Of a DNA stretch of 64,000 nt, positions 3,357-45,927 are shown one piece after another. Below the pieces are notes generated by a model. It saw only the letters and a list, made by a program, of their open reading frames with translations. It made no database searches and was not told where the DNA came from. The number at the start of each line of letters is the position of its first letter. Positions within the stretch are counted from its first letter, which is position 1. Source of the DNA: Deltaproteobacteria bacterium (GTDB taxonomy: Bacteria > SAR324 > JACQKK01); NCBI GenBank assembly GCA_029858505.1, contig JAOUEW010000009.1:1-64000 (forward strand), written 5' to 3'. The position numbers and the translations under genes are program-made.

Positions 3357-3506
3357 AGAGAAATAGAGAAATCGTAACATCTCCTTCAATCTTGTCCCCG
3401 CCATCCCCGCTACTCAAATCCCTCGGATATTGAATACCTCCAGTCGGCTTGTGAAGGCTAGACGAAAGCAAGTGCATCTCTCGCCGGACTCGATTTGTCC
3501 CCAACA

Positions 3507-3697
3507 GCACCCCTCCCCTGCCCTGCGGGCATCCCCTCCCCTTCGTGGAGGGGAATACAACTCGAAGCCGAAAAGTTATGTGCTTGCTTCCTTCCGGTTT
3601 CACTAACTGAACAAATGTAAAGATTAACCGGTGGATTCGAGTATTGTCCCTCCACGAAGGGGAGGGACGGGCGGCGCAAGCCGCCAGGGAGGGGTGC
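3507..3697. repeat. Family A palindromic repeat, tandem copy 1
   Basis: 191 bp from GCACCCCTCCCCTGCC to GGGAGGGGTGC. Each end folds: the left end has GCCCTGCGGGC, the right end has GGCGGCGCAAGCCGCC. Inside, CCCCTCCCCTTCGTGGAGGGG and GTCCCTCCACGAAGGGGAGGGAC flank an AT-richer core containing CTTGCTTCCTTCCGGTTTCA. By eye it is identical to the next copy, joined by the linker TTTACGGGAACAGCAACA (3698-3715). Confidence 0.9.
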
Positions 3698-3715
3698 TTT
3701 ACGGGAACAGCAACA

Positions 3716-3906
3716 GCACCCCTCCCCTGCCCTGCGGGCATCCCCTCCCCTTCGTGGAGGGGAATACAACTCGAAGCCGAAAAGTTATGTGCTTGCTTCC
3801 TTCCGGTTTCACTAACTGAACAAATGTAAAGATTAACCGGTGGATTCGAGTATTGTCCCTCCACGAAGGGGAGGGACGGGCGGCGCAAGCCGCCAGGGAG
3901 GGGTGC
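3716..3906. repeat. Family A palindromic repeat, tandem copy 2
   Basis: Apparently identical to 3507..3697 with a 209-bp period, which points to a recent tandem duplication or to active homogenisation. Confidence 0.9.
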
Positions 3907-3910
3907 TTTG

Positions 3911-4047: not shown

Positions 4048-4202
4048 CATGGAAATGCCCAGCACGGGCAGGTCCCTAGGCTGTGGCATCATCAAAAGGT
4101 ATGTTTCGTATTTAAGGTTGCGTTGAAAGAAAAACAGGGATAATGTTTACGGGTCATGGCTTGGGTTCACGTTGAACTATATTTAAGGAGGGGGGAAATC
4201 TC

Positions 4203-6077
4203 TTGGTCGGTTTTTGTCGCATTTCTAAGCCTATTCTTTTGCTGTTGGCCCTGCTGGGGTTGGCAGGCGGGGTGTGTGCCCAGCAGGCAGGGCAGAGCGG
4301 GGGGGAACCCATTCCCCTGGTAGACCGCACCCAAATCACCAGCCAGCAAGTGGCGGTGCTGAAGGACCCGGCAGGCCTGTTCACATTCGCAGACGTTTCC
4401 AAGGCCAAGTTTACCCCCAGTGAAGAACGCGGTTTTAACTTTGGCACCAACGGGGGTGCCTTATGGTTTCGTTTTTCCGTGATTCACCCCAGTGAGGAAT
4501 CCTTTGCCCTGCTGGTGGACAACCCTCGGCTGGAGCAAGTGACATTTTTCCTGCGGATGGACAATGGAACCATCCAACGCATGGAATCCGGCGATGGGGT
4601 TCCCCTGGTCAAACGGCCTTTTCATTTCCGCGAAATTGCCTTTCCGCTCAAAATCACCAAAAGCCATTCGGGAGAAGTGTATCTCCGGGTACAAACATCC
4701 TCTCCCATTTCGCTGCCTTTGCGGCTGATGACCCTGGAGACCCTCCACCGGGAATCCCGCTTTGCCGAGGTTTTTCTGTCTGGCCTGCTGGGGGCCATGG
4801 CGTTGCTGTCCCTGGCGGCTTTACTGGCCTTTGCTTGGCGGCCATCTCCACTGTTGGGGGCCGTGGCCACCATGGCCCTGGTGCAATCCTTCTATTCGTC
4901 CGTTCAAGACGGTTTGGCTTCGGAATACTTTTGGCCAACCCGCCCAGACATGATCATCCGAGGAAAATATCTGCTGATCGCCTTCCTGGCGCCGGTGGCC
5001 CTGAATTACTGCCATAAGGCCATGGATGTGCCGAAACATTTTCCGCGGATCAATGTGCTCTTTTGGGGGCTCATTGTTTCAGGCCCGGTCATCTCGCTGT
5101 CGTCGCTTGTCATCCCCGGGTTCTGGGTCTATCGGATGGCATCGGTACAATCAGGCGCCGTGGCGGGGCTGCTGCTGATCCTGATTCCCTGGGCCTGGAT
5201 GCGGGGCAACCCAGCCGGGCGGGTGTTGTTCTGGTCCGGCTTTCCGCTCATCGCCGCGGCGTTGATTGTGGTGTCTCATGCGTTTACGCTGCCCCTCCAC
5301 CCTGCCGTGGTGATGCACTTCTACAAAATGGCCTATTTGGTGTTTATGTTCACCCAGTTGGCGTGGGCCTTTGGCCAGTCGAATAAAACCAAACACCCCA
5401 CCCTGTTGACCCATACGGAAGATCCGAATCGGTTCATCCCCGAGGCCCAGGGAAAAACCAACTTGATGTACACCCTGGGGCAGTTTCACGTGGTTCGAAA
5501 GGGAAAGCCCGTGCGCTTCACCAGCCGGGGGGTTTCACAAATTCAGATCATGCTGGCCATGATTGCGGCGGGAGGAGCAGCAGGCATCTCCCGGAGAGAC
5601 TTGGTGGACCAGTTGTGGCCAGAAGACGAAGGGGACACCTCGGAAACCAGCCTTCGCACCGCCCTCTACCGCCTGCGCCAACTGATTGGCAAAGAAGCCC
5701 TGACCATCAGCGATCAACGCTACATGCTGTCTTCCGATGTGGTGTGGGAGGATAGCCAGCACTTTGAAGCCGCCGCCCGGGCTGTGCTCTCCGGTTCAGG
5801 CTCCGGGCCAGACCCCCTGGCCGCGCTGAACCTGTACGGGGGAGATTTCCTGCCCGGCTTTCAGGCACCTGCCATCGTTTACCGCCGGGAAACCCTGCGG
5901 GGGTTGTTCCAGCGGCTGGTGCTTCACGCCGCCGACCAACTCGCCGCTCAGGGGGATTACCCCGCCGCCCTGGCCGTGGTGGAGCAAGCCCTCGCCCGCA
6001 GCCAGCCCAACGAAAGGTTGTCTGAAAAAATCATTCAACTGAAGGAAAAACGGGCCGCCCAGACCCCCATCCACTGA
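4203..6077 (+). CDS. Membrane-bound regulator: 7TMR-DISM receptor fused to SARP/BTAD DNA-binding output
   Basis: 624 residues from TTG, preceded by AAGGAGGGG. Order: signal peptide (cleaved near VCAQQ), an extracellular beta-sandwich of 7TMR-DISMED2 type (about 45-175; LWFRFSVIHPSEE, LLVDNPRLEQVTFFL), seven hydrophobic segments (about 185-400), then a cytoplasmic winged helix (about 420-515; RRDLVDQLWPEDEGDTSETSLRTALYRLRQLIG, read in pieces, matches the OmpR/SARP fold) and a helical BTAD-like domain (to the end; YGGDFLPGF, YPAALAVVEQAL). Known 7TMR-DISM proteins usually carry kinase or GGDEF outputs. Here the output is a transcription factor, so it probably reads an extracellular ligand and regulates DNA directly. 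Likely target: 6240..6296. Confidence 0.8.
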   Translation: MVGFCRISKPILLLLALLGLAGGVCAQQAGQSGGEPIPLVDRTQITSQQVAVLKDPAGLFTFADVSKAKFTPSEERGFNFGTNGGALWFRFSVIHPSEESFALLVDNPRLEQVTFFLRMDNGTIQRMESGDGVPLVKRPFHFREIAFPLKITKSHSGEVYLRVQTSSPISLPLRLMTLETLHRESRFAEVFLSGLLGAMALLSLAALLAFAWRPSPLLGAVATMALVQSFYSSVQDGLASEYFWPTRPDMIIRGKYLLIAFLAPVALNYCHKAMDVPKHFPRINVLFWGLIVSGPVISLSSLVIPGFWVYRMASVQSGAVAGLLLILIPWAWMRGNPAGRVLFWSGFPLIAAALIVVSHAFTLPLHPAVVMHFYKMAYLVFMFTQLAWAFGQSNKTKHPTLLTHTEDPNRFIPEAQGKTNLMYTLGQFHVVRKGKPVRFTSRGVSQIQIMLAMIAAGGAAGISRRDLVDQLWPEDEGDTSETSLRTALYRLRQLIGKEALTISDQRYMLSSDVVWEDSQHFEAAARAVLSGSGSGPDPLAALNLYGGDFLPGFQAPAIVYRRETLRGLFQRLVLHAADQLAAQGDYPAALAVVEQALARSQPNERLSEKIIQLKEKRAAQTPIH

Positions 6078-6239
6078 CGCATATATGACCTAAAAATACG
6101 GTCATATTCCTCCCTTACCTTCGCGCTTTTTGGTAATTTCCACGCCTCCGCAAGTTTTTTTTCTCATTCGTGCGTCCGATATTATTCATATTTATGAATT
6201 TTTTATCCTGTTTTATCAATATTATAAATAAATATTTTT

Positions 6240-6296
6240 CGTGTCACGTTCGTGTCACGCTCATGTCACGGTCGTGTCACGCCCGTGTGTTAGGAT
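6240..6296 (+). promoter_or_regulatory. Tandem 11-bp direct repeats (SARP-type operator) with -10 box
   Basis: Four consecutive 11-mers: CGTGTCACGTT, CGTGTCACGCT, CATGTCACGGT and CGTGTCACGCC, then a degenerate fifth, CGTGTGTTAGG (6284-6294). TAGGAT at 6291..6296 can serve as the -10. SARP regulators are known to bind heptamer direct repeats at 11-bp spacing just upstream of the -10, and the upstream neighbour encodes a SARP-type output. The upstream 6078-6239 is very AT-rich. Assignment of the regulator to this site is inference. Confidence 0.75.
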
Positions 6297-6413: not shown

Positions 6414-7190
6414 ATGAATAAACTCACGAGCTTGTTACTGGGCCTGGCAGTGCTGGCCCTGGCGGGATGTGGTGGAGGTGGTGGAGGAGGAGGTGGAGGT
6501 GGTGGAGGTGGTAGCGTACCGTTGGTCAACCAAGGCGCCACTGGTGCTGGAGGGCCCATTGTGCTAACGCTAAACTCAGTTTATTCGGGTACGGTGGCTC
6601 CTACCGGGGTAAGTTACTATCAGATCACCTATCCCACTGCGGGGACTTATCTGATTGGCTTGACTGGCATGACCACAAATGCAGACATTGTCACCTATAC
6701 CGATAACATGTTTACCACGCTCACCGGAACTTGCACGGCAATGTTGGGGTGGTTTAATGATAACTGTTCGGTGACCACCGCGGCAGCCAACACCGTGATT
6801 TACGTCAAGGTGAAGGATATGGCAACTTTTGGTAATTCCTTCAAAATCGGTTCCCATGTCAGCGAAGGAACTGTCGGTGCTGGTGGGCCCATTGCGCTTA
6901 CAAAAGGCACAGCCCATGCGGGTACGGTGGGTGCTGTGCAATCTAGTCTCTATCAGGTGACCTATGCGACAGCGGGGACGTACACCATTACCCTGAACGG
7001 CCTAACGGGAGATGCCGACCCCTCAACCTTCACCGACAATTTTTTTACCACGCCCACTGGCACCTGCACGGCAAACGGAGGAACCACGGCGGACACCTGT
7101 TCGGTGACCACCGCGGCGGCCAACACCGTGATTTACATCCAGGTGCAAGATTGGTCGGGTACAGGGGTATCCTTTAACCTAACCCCGTAA
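6414..7190 (+). CDS. Surface lipoprotein: poly-Gly tether and two PPC-like domains
   Basis: 258 residues. Signal MNKLTSLLLGLAVLALAGC with lipobox, then 14 consecutive Gly, then two ~100-residue repeats with the pattern GAGGPI, Y-Q-(V/I)-T-Y, AGTYxIxLxGxT, TDNxFTT, GTCTA, a second Cys and AANTVIYxxV. The pattern resembles PPC domains of secreted proteins; each repeat has two cysteines that could be disulfide-linked. The last repeat is the paralogue of the gene at 1..251. Probably lipid-anchored, with its domains held off the membrane by the Gly tether. It is the nearest gene downstream of the receptor-SARP protein and its putative operator. Confidence 0.85.
   Translation: MNKLTSLLLGLAVLALAGCGGGGGGGGGGGGGGSVPLVNQGATGAGGPIVLTLNSVYSGTVAPTGVSYYQITYPTAGTYLIGLTGMTTNADIVTYTDNMFTTLTGTCTAMLGWFNDNCSVTTAAANTVIYVKVKDMATFGNSFKIGSHVSEGTVGAGGPIALTKGTAHAGTVGAVQSSLYQVTYATAGTYTITLNGLTGDADPSTFTDNFFTTPTGTCTANGGTTADTCSVTTAAANTVIYIQVQDWSGTGVSFNLTP
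6471..6512 (+). repeat. GGT/GGA trinucleotide repeat coding for poly-glycine
   Basis: Fourteen Gly codons, all GGT or GGA, directly after the lipid-modified Cys codon. Slippage here would change tether length without shifting frame. Confidence 0.9.
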
Positions 7191-7233: not shown

Positions 7234-7266
7234 AGCCCGTGGGTAACCCCCACGGGCTTTTTTTTT
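7234..7266 (+). terminator. Rho-independent terminator after the 6414 gene
   Basis: AGCCCGTGGG pairs with CCCACGGGCT and nine or so T follow. Near copy of the terminator at 295..327. Confidence 0.9.
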
Positions 7267-44020: not shown

Positions 44021-44023
44021 CAA

Positions 44024-44220
44024 GCACCCCTCCCTGCCGCCTTTTAGGCGGCTGTCCCTCCCCATCGGAGAGGGACAATACGGCTTAGGCCGAGGGGTGG
44101 AGAATAGAATCCGAGCGATGGGTGAGACCGGAAGGAAGCAAGCCGATCACTTTTCGGATGCAAGTTGTTCCCCTCCACGAAGGGGAGGGGATGCCTGCGT
44201 AGCAGGCAGGGGAGGGGTGC
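44024..44220. repeat. Family A palindromic repeat, array of three, copy 1
   Basis: 197 bp, GCACCCCTCCCTGCCGCC to GGCAGGGGAGGGGTGC. Arms form GCCGCCTTTTAGGCGGC and GCCTGCGTAGCAGGC hairpins. Followed by the linker TGTTGCTGTTCCCGTAAA, the exact reverse complement of the linker at 3698, so this array runs in the opposite orientation. Confidence 0.9.
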
Positions 44221-44238
44221 TGTTGCTGTTCCCGTAAA

Positions 44239-44435
44239 GCACCCCTCCCTGCCGCCTTTTAGGCGGCTGTCCCTCCCCATCGGAGAGGGACAATACGGCT
44301 TAGGCCGAGGGGTGGAGAATAGAATCCGTGCGATGGGTGAGACCGGAAGGAAGCAAGCCGATCACTTTTCGGATGCAAGTTGTTCCCCTCCACGAAGGGG
44401 AGGGGATGCCTGCGTAGCAGGCAGGGGAGGGGTGC
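44239..44435. repeat. Family A palindromic repeat, copy 2
   Basis: 197 bp, differing from copy 1 by a single visible base (GAGCG to GTGCG in the core). Period 215 bp including the 18-base linker. Confidence 0.9.
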
Positions 44436-44453
44436 TGTTGCTGTTCCCGTAAA

Positions 44454-44647
44454 GCACCCCTCCCTGCCGCCTTTTAGGCGGCTGTCCCTCCCCATCGGAG
44501 AGGGACGATACTCGAAGCCACCGGTTATTCTTTACATTTGTTCAGTTAGTGAAACCGGAAGGAAGCAAGCCGATCATTTTTCGGATGCGAGTTGTTCCCC
44601 TCCACGAAGGGGAGGGGATGCCTGCGAAGCAGGCAGGGGAGGGGTGC
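44454..44647. repeat. Family A palindromic repeat, copy 3
   Basis: 194 bp with the other core type (CTCGAAGCCACCGGTTATTC, then CAGTTAGTGAAACCGGAAGG), like the copies at 3.5 kb. It ends 18 bases before the stop codon of the DUF559 gene. Confidence 0.9.
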
Positions 44648-44665
44648 TTTTCGGGTGGGATGCCT

Positions 44666-45430: not shown

Positions 45431-45477
45431 TGTTGGGAGGGGTGCTGTTGGGAGGGGTGCTTTACGGGAATAGCAAC

Positions 45478-45673
45478 AACACCCCTCCCCTGCCCCCTTG
45501 CGGGGGCATCCCCTCCCCTTCGTGGAGGGGAAATATATCGAAGCCGGGAAGTTATGCGCTTGCTTCCTTCCAGTTTTTACCAACCGAACGAATGAAGAGA
45601 TAAGCCGATGGATTCGAGTATTGTCCCTCTCCGATGGGGAGGGACGGGCACCGAAGGTGCCAGGGAGGGGTGC
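45478..45673. repeat. Family A palindromic repeat, copy 5
   Basis: Left arm and core as in copy 4, but the right arm reads GGCACCGAAGGTGCC. Followed by TGTTGGGAGGGGTGC and the linker TTTACGGGAATAGCAACA. Confidence 0.88.
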
Positions 45674-45706
45674 TGTTGGGAGGGGTGCTTTACGGGAATA
45701 GCAACA

Positions 45707-45901
45707 GCACCCCTCCCCTGCCCCCTTGCGGGGGCATCCCCTCCCCTTCGTGGAGGGGAAATATATCGAAGCCGGGAAGTTATGCGCTTGCTTCCTTCCA
45801 GTTTTTACCAACCGAACGAATGAAGAGATAAGCCGATGGATTCGAGTATTGTCCCTCTCCGATGGGGAGGGACGGGCACCGAAGGTGCCAGGGAGGGGTG
45901 C
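45707..45901. repeat. Family A palindromic repeat, copy 6
   Basis: Essentially identical to copy 5. Its end touches the terminator of the Cyc2-like gene. Confidence 0.88.
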
Positions 45902-45927
45902 TGTTGGGAGGGGTGCTGTTTTTCAAA

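Follow-up and report, generated by a model that had tools for sequence, protein, structure and literature searches.

A 7TMR-DISM receptor with a SARP-type output in a SAR324 bacterium, and a candidate operator and target gene beside it

A stretch of 64,000 nucleotides from a Deltaproteobacteria bacterium of the SAR324 lineage (contig JAOUEW010000009.1, or G000:C9:1-64000 in our numbering, of the 2.79 Mb assembly GCA_029858505.1; hereafter the window) contains a gene that encodes, in a single polypeptide, a signal peptide, a 7TMR-DISMED2 ectodomain, seven membrane helices, a winged helix and a BTAD-like domain (Table 1). The outputs known for DISM receptors are mostly kinases or second-messenger enzymes, which makes the ligands of these receptors difficult to read out, and the SARP output has been studied as an actinobacterial antibiotic activator. 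An earlier note on this DNA, made from the sequence alone, had proposed that the two are joined here, and all of the parts that it named are present in one frame: the open reading frame (ORF) of 624 codons is uninterrupted and without an internal stop, and no frameshift separates the two halves. A frameshifted gene or pseudogene was considered and ruled out by the open frame and by inspection by eye of the three frames past the stop, none of which holds an obvious continuation of the BTAD domain. The observation of a DISM receptor and a SARP-type output in one gene is thus confirmed.

Table 1. The fused receptor-regulator gene and the adjoining features, in window coordinates
Feature	Coordinates	Strand	Basis and details
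Ribosome-binding-site-like AAGGAGGGGGG	4185..4195	+	Sequence; 7 bases 5' of the TTG start
Fused receptor-regulator gene	4203..6077	+	624 residues, TTG start, TGA stop; full-length homologues in genome G009
Signal peptide, about residues 1-26	4203..4280	+	By eye; hydrophobic N-terminus ending VCA-QQ; model helix 5-30
7TMR-DISMED2 ectodomain, residues 48-177	4344..4733	+	Pfam; RetS sensor-domain fold
Seven membrane helices, residues 178-393	4734..5381	+	Pfam 7TMR-DISM_7TM; model; loop charges
Linker, about 26 residues	5382..5459	+	Model: 392-406 at pLDDT <50, without a long helix
OmpR-type winged helix, residues 420-516	5460..5750	+	Model; fold matches
BTAD-like helical domain, residues 517-620	5751..6062	+	C-terminus shorter than in the homologues
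Candidate operator, TGTCACG at 6242, 6253, 6264, 6275	6242..6281	+	Exact 11-bp period; Tandem Repeats Finder (TRF) 6239-6288, period 11
TGT-TAGGAT, extended -10-like element	6288..6296	+	Sequence; hexamer 6291-6296
Candidate target, lipoprotein gene	6414..7190	+	258 residues; lipobox LAGC
Intrinsic-terminator-like hairpin and T run	7234..7258	+	3' of the lipoprotein gene

The receptor half is recognized by Pfam above the cut-offs, with 99.1 bits (E-value 2.6e-28, cut-off 22) for 7TMR-DISMED2 at residues 48-177 and 47.7 bits (2.4e-12, cut-off 29) for 7TMR-DISM_7TM at residues 191-384. The matches of the output half fall under them: Trans_reg_C scores 19.6 bits against 26.2 (residues 462-498) and BTAD 15.5 bits against 22.1 (residues 540-611), and this half was cross-checked through homologues, a family profile and the predicted fold. 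In the AlphaFold2 (AF2) model most of residues 420-620 have a predicted local distance difference test (pLDDT) score above 90, with one ten-residue block at 82 and another at 87, and confidence in the fold stays high up to about residue 620. Seven helices span residues 178-212, 216-236, 248-274, 281-300, 306-333, 337-362 and 367-393; the loops between them carry 1, 3 and 2 lysine or arginine residues on the predicted inside and 1, 0 and 0 on the predicted outside, and an intracellular module, the winged helix-turn-helix (wHTH) and BTAD from residue 420, follows the seventh helix. The top structures returned by Foldseek were AfsR in activation complexes and EmbR, and then the RetS sensor domain. 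In VIA-align, AfsR (8hvr) reached Z 13.7 and EmbR Z 13.6, with the best unrelated row at 9.9, and the ectodomain matched the RetS sensor domain (2xbz, Z 9.0; 3jyb, Z 8.3). The C-terminal fold match covers residues 410-622 in the SARP order, wHTH and then BTAD, but the SARP part lies here at the C-terminal side of signal peptide, ectodomain and seven helices and not at the N-terminus. In structure comparison, the DNA-binding domains of ToxR and TcpP match the winged helix as well.

A second SAR324 genome, G009, encodes two full-length homologues that share this architecture and are 25% and 23% identical to the window protein (L037, the same as locus L078, and L038, the same as L079); both carry the DISMED2 and 7TM domains. 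The BTAD domain of L037 scores 57.2 bits against the cut-off of 22.1 and matches profile positions 2-143 of 146, compared with 31-103 of 146 in the window protein; in L038, Trans_reg_C is sub-threshold too and BTAD is not listed. A 34-sequence family profile matches AfsR (8hvr, 1.8e-21) and EmbR (1.7e-11) across the wHTH-BTAD stretch, in a search where designed and other TPR proteins fill most of the rows through the BTAD part alone, the designed ones ranking above AfsR and EmbR. Residues T486, R490, L491 and R492 are invariant in all three fusions, and a weak phmmer alignment (E-value 0.047; the matching of residue numbers is our own) places T486 and R490 at AfsR T88 and R92, which contact bases (PMC10936776; this and the other articles cited are drawn on for the parts covered).

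Among the 52 genomes of its own phylum, the fusion occurs as these three proteins in two genomes, G000 and G009. The profile of the output half matches 19 of the 52, many of them weakly; strong matches without the DISM part come from G006, G008, G046, G047 and G048, those in G008 being cut by contig ends and those in G006 short, so that their architecture is not readable. A protein search of the window's own genome found seven other DISM proteins, all with HATPase_c and six also with HisKA. In three other phylum-level sets of 395, 398 and 395 genomes, centred on the genomes of L085, L080 and L086, no fused architecture was found at an E-value of 1e-50 or better, with at most two or three candidates scored per genome, a depth at which rarer forms may be missed; six matches cover the DISM part only and end, as judged by eye, in a histidine kinase, GGDEF or hybrid histidine kinase. 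A contig search with the single protein as query found nothing, and one with the three-row alignment yielded 49 loci, two of which are the G009 fusions. The nearest output halves elsewhere belong mostly to ORFs without counted membrane helices and often form the C-terminal end of proteins some 1000 residues long; in the two such proteins that were scanned, L042 and L043, NTPase-like and TPR parts precede the wHTH-BTAD. Identity to the output half is 25% for L042, 30% for L043 and, at the highest, 38% for L040, whose ORF ends at a contig end. G009 also encodes a protein of 1347 residues (L039, 4050-8090, reverse strand) with an N-terminal wHTH-BTAD and guanylate-cyclase-like, AAA and TPR parts, which resembles the large Streptomyces SARP regulator PimR.

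What the earlier note had expected of these comparisons was borne out for the receptor domains in Pfam, for the seven helices and AfsR/EmbR-like C-terminal fold in the structure prediction and for the same architecture in homologues; the Trans_reg_C and BTAD matches that it had called for stayed below the cut-offs, and those two domains rest on homologues, profile and fold. A single origin of the three fusions is not shown by the trees, yet it may have occurred: the C-terminal tree has long branches and needs three changes, and the DISM tree needs two, a number as low being reached in 22 of 500 shuffles. The end branches of 2.73 and 2.89, the longest in both trees, point to fast evolution and, together with the shortened BTAD, would suit a C-terminal half that has lost DNA binding and is a decaying or repurposed output, engaged for example in protein-protein signalling. 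We hold this to be very improbable, given the invariance of T486, R490 and R492, the confidently predicted fold and the intact operator-like array that stands beside the gene.

This array of TGTCACG heptamers begins 165 bases beyond the stop of the fusion gene, and 132 bases separate it from the start of the lipoprotein gene, the product of which has a weak PPC domain (18.9 bits, under the cut-off). The TAGGAT hexamer lies 9 bases after the last heptamer. In published SARP sites the repeats are spaced by 11 or 22 bp and the 3' repeat is 8 bp from the -10 element (PMC10936776, PMC4393881), and PimR needs at least two heptamers (PMC5930380); the layout beside the fusion gene, with its 11-bp repeats and 9 bases to a -10-like hexamer, is a candidate SARP-like operator. 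A sigma-70 scan, which also requires a -35 hexamer, does not list the -10-like element. No further heptamer with three or more different letters recurs in four exact copies in the window at periods of 8 to 15, and no exact 11-bp triple arose in 40 first-order simulations of the window. Lipoprotein genes flank the fusion gene on both sides (644-1903 and 6414-7190) and their products have near-identical signal peptides (MNKL..LLLGLAVLALAGC); the array precedes only the second of them.

The exact two-heptamer pattern occurs at just two places in the whole genome, the window array and C4:486357, and these are also the only exact matches to TGTCAYN5TGTCAY. At C4:486357 the 11 bases past the second heptamer (CCCGTGTGTTA) are identical to those past the last heptamer of the window, and the site lies 106 bases 5' of a lipoprotein gene whose product has Big_2 and Kelch domains. 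A copy with one mismatch, at C6:90660, lies 76 bases 5' of a third lipoprotein gene, in which Pfam finds no domain. All three sites are correctly oriented toward their lipoprotein genes, and a lipobox, by a rule of our own, is present in 6 of 86 sampled genes, the three candidate targets being among the six. The regions G000:C6:86500-95000 and C11:86500-95000 (L141 and L142) are identical over all 8501 compared bases, so that the C6:90660 copy recurs in C11, and this identity points to duplicated sequence in the assembly.

Similar repeats accompany related genes. In the genus of G009, the L079 fusion gene ends at 2282 and is followed, 172 bases past its stop, by TGTGAAC at 2454, 2465 and 2476 and then by a lipoprotein gene whose product carries Big_2 and PKD domains; the heptamer differs from that of the window, with the 11-bp period and the gene order the same. 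Of the 49 wHTH-BTAD loci, which are not fully independent of one another, 43 had at least 150 bases downstream, and exact 11-bp heptamer pairs are present in 13 of these 43 flanks. Simulations gave a mean of 1.68 and a maximum of 5, and none of 300 runs was as high; in the same loci, such pairs occur in 2 of 46 upstream flanks and in 19 of 628 other 500-base pieces, and at most 6 of the 43 downstream flanks have pairs at any other period from 8 to 30. Pairs at 9 and 12 bp are frequent in the non-flank pieces (62 and 97 of 628), which may be a property of coding DNA. Several of the downstream repeats read TGTGAC, TGTAAC, TGTGAT or TGTGAA, and TGTNA-N6-TGTNA occurs on the gene strand of 5 of the 43 downstream flanks and on the other strand of none, with 1 and 7 of 628 elsewhere. 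A triple TGTNAC at 11 bp was found in 2 of the 52 genomes, namely the triple of the window and one in G012, the pattern being unable to match TGTGAAC.

The distance to a -10-like element was read from a hand-picked list of 12 sites. It takes L079, L085, L086, L089, L090, L107, L109 and L110 from the 13 paired flanks, omits L093, L101, L105, L112 and L113, whose repeats do not look TGT-like (L105 and L112 share a repeat), and adds L099, with a 22-bp pair, and the three sites of the window's own genome. In 7 of the 12 (8 if the TGTGT of L109 is counted), the first base of TAnnnT lies 16-18 bases from the first base of the final in-phase TGTNA. The eight genes taken from the paired flanks differ in length and make-up, and their TGTNA-type or similar repeats at about 11 bp look like a family-wide operator habit.

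The heptamers of the window could also belong to another regulator. PhoB binds direct repeats at 11 bp, and the direct repeats of Pho boxes have a TGTCA core, a likeness that would favour a Pho-box-like site, or a site of some other OmpR-family regulator, with the fusion acting elsewhere or not on the array, and the genome encodes both a PhoB-like protein beside pstS (L148; PhoB model 6.9e-72, under the cut-off; PstS, TIGR02136, over it) and a second OmpR-type response regulator, L149. This origin of the array appears improbable. A scan of about 960 bases at pstS gave no TGTCACG-type or Pho-like pair at fewer than two mismatches, the promoter possibly being further up; exact TGTCAYN5TGTCAY is confined to the window array and C4; and the array adjoins the fusion gene both in the window and, with the changed heptamer, at L079, with similar arrays 3' of other wHTH-BTAD genes.

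On the basis of these data, we interpret the window protein, with a probability of roughly 0.7, as a membrane-anchored one-component transcription activator in which a DISM receptor has a SARP-type output; that it binds DNA, activates rather than represses, is gated by a ligand and controls the regulon outlined here is what we infer from genome data. The periplasmic DISMED2 domain would bind a ligand, and the seven-helix bundle would relay the signal to the cytoplasmic wHTH and BTAD-like output, held on a short flexible linker. Dimers of the receptor, or receptors gathered by ligand, would put two or more SARP domains on the array, where they would pair side by side on the 11-bp heptamers, each repeat taking one protomer, and would bring RNA polymerase to the weak extended -10, as AfsR does. 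The SARP domains of AfsR lie side by side, one per repeat, and contact sigma region 4 (PMC10936776). The lipoprotein gene at 6414 would thereby be switched on, and probably the two more lipoprotein genes elsewhere in the genome. The earlier note's interpretation of a receptor-to-DNA regulator is supported, and its idea of action on a promoter from the membrane gains a concrete candidate operator and candidate target gene.

Such tethered action would in principle need no cleavage. A different possibility is that the receptor serves as a membrane store and that a protease cuts the linker (394-419) after a signal, freeing the wHTH-BTAD. We consider this unlikely and retain it as an alternative because the soft linker permits cleavage: it is short, part of it is modelled with low confidence and no long helix is predicted in it (that of L079 is longer), and a simple hydropathy count places no membrane helices ahead of the domain in most related wHTH-BTAD ORFs. 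Membrane-bound regulators are, however, described as frequent and as working from the membrane (PMC10269533).

Several observations weigh against a membrane-anchored activator that acts on the array. Trans_reg_C and BTAD are both sub-threshold in Pfam, the final part of BTAD that is present in L037 and L038 is missing, and the AF2 model, with a mean pLDDT of 71 and a predicted template modelling score (pTM) of 0.43, does not fix the mutual placing of the two halves. A fourth site with one mismatch, C1:46372, lies between genes of the other strand with no suitably placed gene after it, and if two mismatches are allowed, the total of 13 matches, against 5 for a reversed control, is near background. 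The third fusion, L078, has no downstream 11-bp array, the next gene being a receiver/kinase gene; of the two places with an exact TGTGAAC pair in G009, one is an intergenic tandem repeat and not a lipoprotein promoter; and L079, L089, L099 and L110 miss the 16-18-base rule, which L109 fits only with TGTGT counted. Since the related L039, L042 and L043 genes of the same phylum lack a downstream array as well (L042 has a pair upstream), the downstream 11-bp operator would be a tendency among related genes and not a strict rule. Whether the 7TM receptor is itself a SARP-type sigma adaptor, its SARP domains paired or positioned by ligand on 11-bp repeats at the membrane, within a wider Gram-negative wHTH-BTAD family whose TGTNA-type operators tend to lie just downstream, is in our judgment an evenly balanced question.

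Compared with known systems, the window protein shares the signal peptide, DISMED2, seven-helix domain and sensor fold of 7TMR-DISM receptors of the RetS type and differs from them in its output of a winged helix and a BTAD-like domain. With the SARPs AfsR, EmbR and PimR it shares the wHTH-BTAD order, the predicted fold, aligned base-contact residues and a candidate 11-bp operator near a -10 element, but its host is not an actinobacterium, its BTAD lacks the last part and its SARP part is C-terminal on a membrane receptor, whereas that of AfsR is N-terminal (PMC10936776). The regulators L042, L043 and others of an NTPase- or MalT-like type have a related C-terminal wHTH-BTAD output; L042 and L043 have no counted membrane helices and carry AAA/NACHT-like and TPR parts where the window protein has its DISM receptor.

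ToxR and CadC have an N-terminal winged helix and one membrane helix. Like these two, TcpP and CoxC, the window protein combines a sensor and a DNA-binding domain within one membrane protein, and the presence of a membrane region and a DNA-binding domain in a single chain agrees with the definition of the membrane-bound one-component regulators reported as widespread in PMC10269533, the main text of which does not contain the words "SARP" or "BTAD". CoxC is a repressor that combines an MHYT membrane sensor with a C-terminal LytTR domain on three direct repeats (PMC11347149), unlike the window protein with its wHTH-BTAD output and proposed activator role. A published arrangement close to it joins a DISM receptor to a C-terminal DNA-binding domain of the ChiS family, described as a helix-turn-helix variant into which a sheet is inserted (helix-sheet-helix), and 7TMR-DISM proteins with this domain are among its most abundant architectures in proteobacteria (PMC8092284, Fig. 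5A legend); the sections of that article covered here give no operator for them. The window protein differs from these forms in its wHTH-BTAD output. A DISM receptor with SARP-type output was not found in the open-licence literature searched, supplementary tables excepted, and this output on a DISM receptor would be the new element. Because 7TMR-DISM with another DNA-binding domain has already been published, the fusion is a variant and not a wholly new kind.

If correct, the proposed activator would bring the SARP output to the membrane of a Gram-negative lineage, where an outside signal could switch a gene without a relay protein, and a target adjoining the regulator's own gene would shorten the promoter search of a membrane-fixed protein. 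With receptor, candidate operator and candidate target within 3 kb, a reporter driven by the 6242-6296 promoter could screen DISM ligands directly. The three together form an unusually complete candidate unit, and the repeats give a testable rule for the binding places of related wHTH-BTAD regulators. Should the receptor also be a sigma adaptor, sensor, operator and target would be readable together from the genome.

Other repeats were seen as well. Copies of about 209-228 bp, arranged in tandem and containing C/G-rich runs (CACCCCTCCC, GGGAGGGGTG), occupy 3502-3909, 44022-44648 and 45435-45917 of the window, the first block just upstream of the fusion gene, and are perhaps a mobile or structural repeat of the genome. 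Downstream of the third fusion, at L078 3884-3940, a 12-bp repeat (TGCAGATAGCAC, about five copies) lies between kinase and ABC transporter genes. In two Nitrospira-type records, L108 and L114, TGTCCCC pairs at 12 bp stand on both sides of small wHTH-BTAD genes and precede a 5.7-kb ORF.

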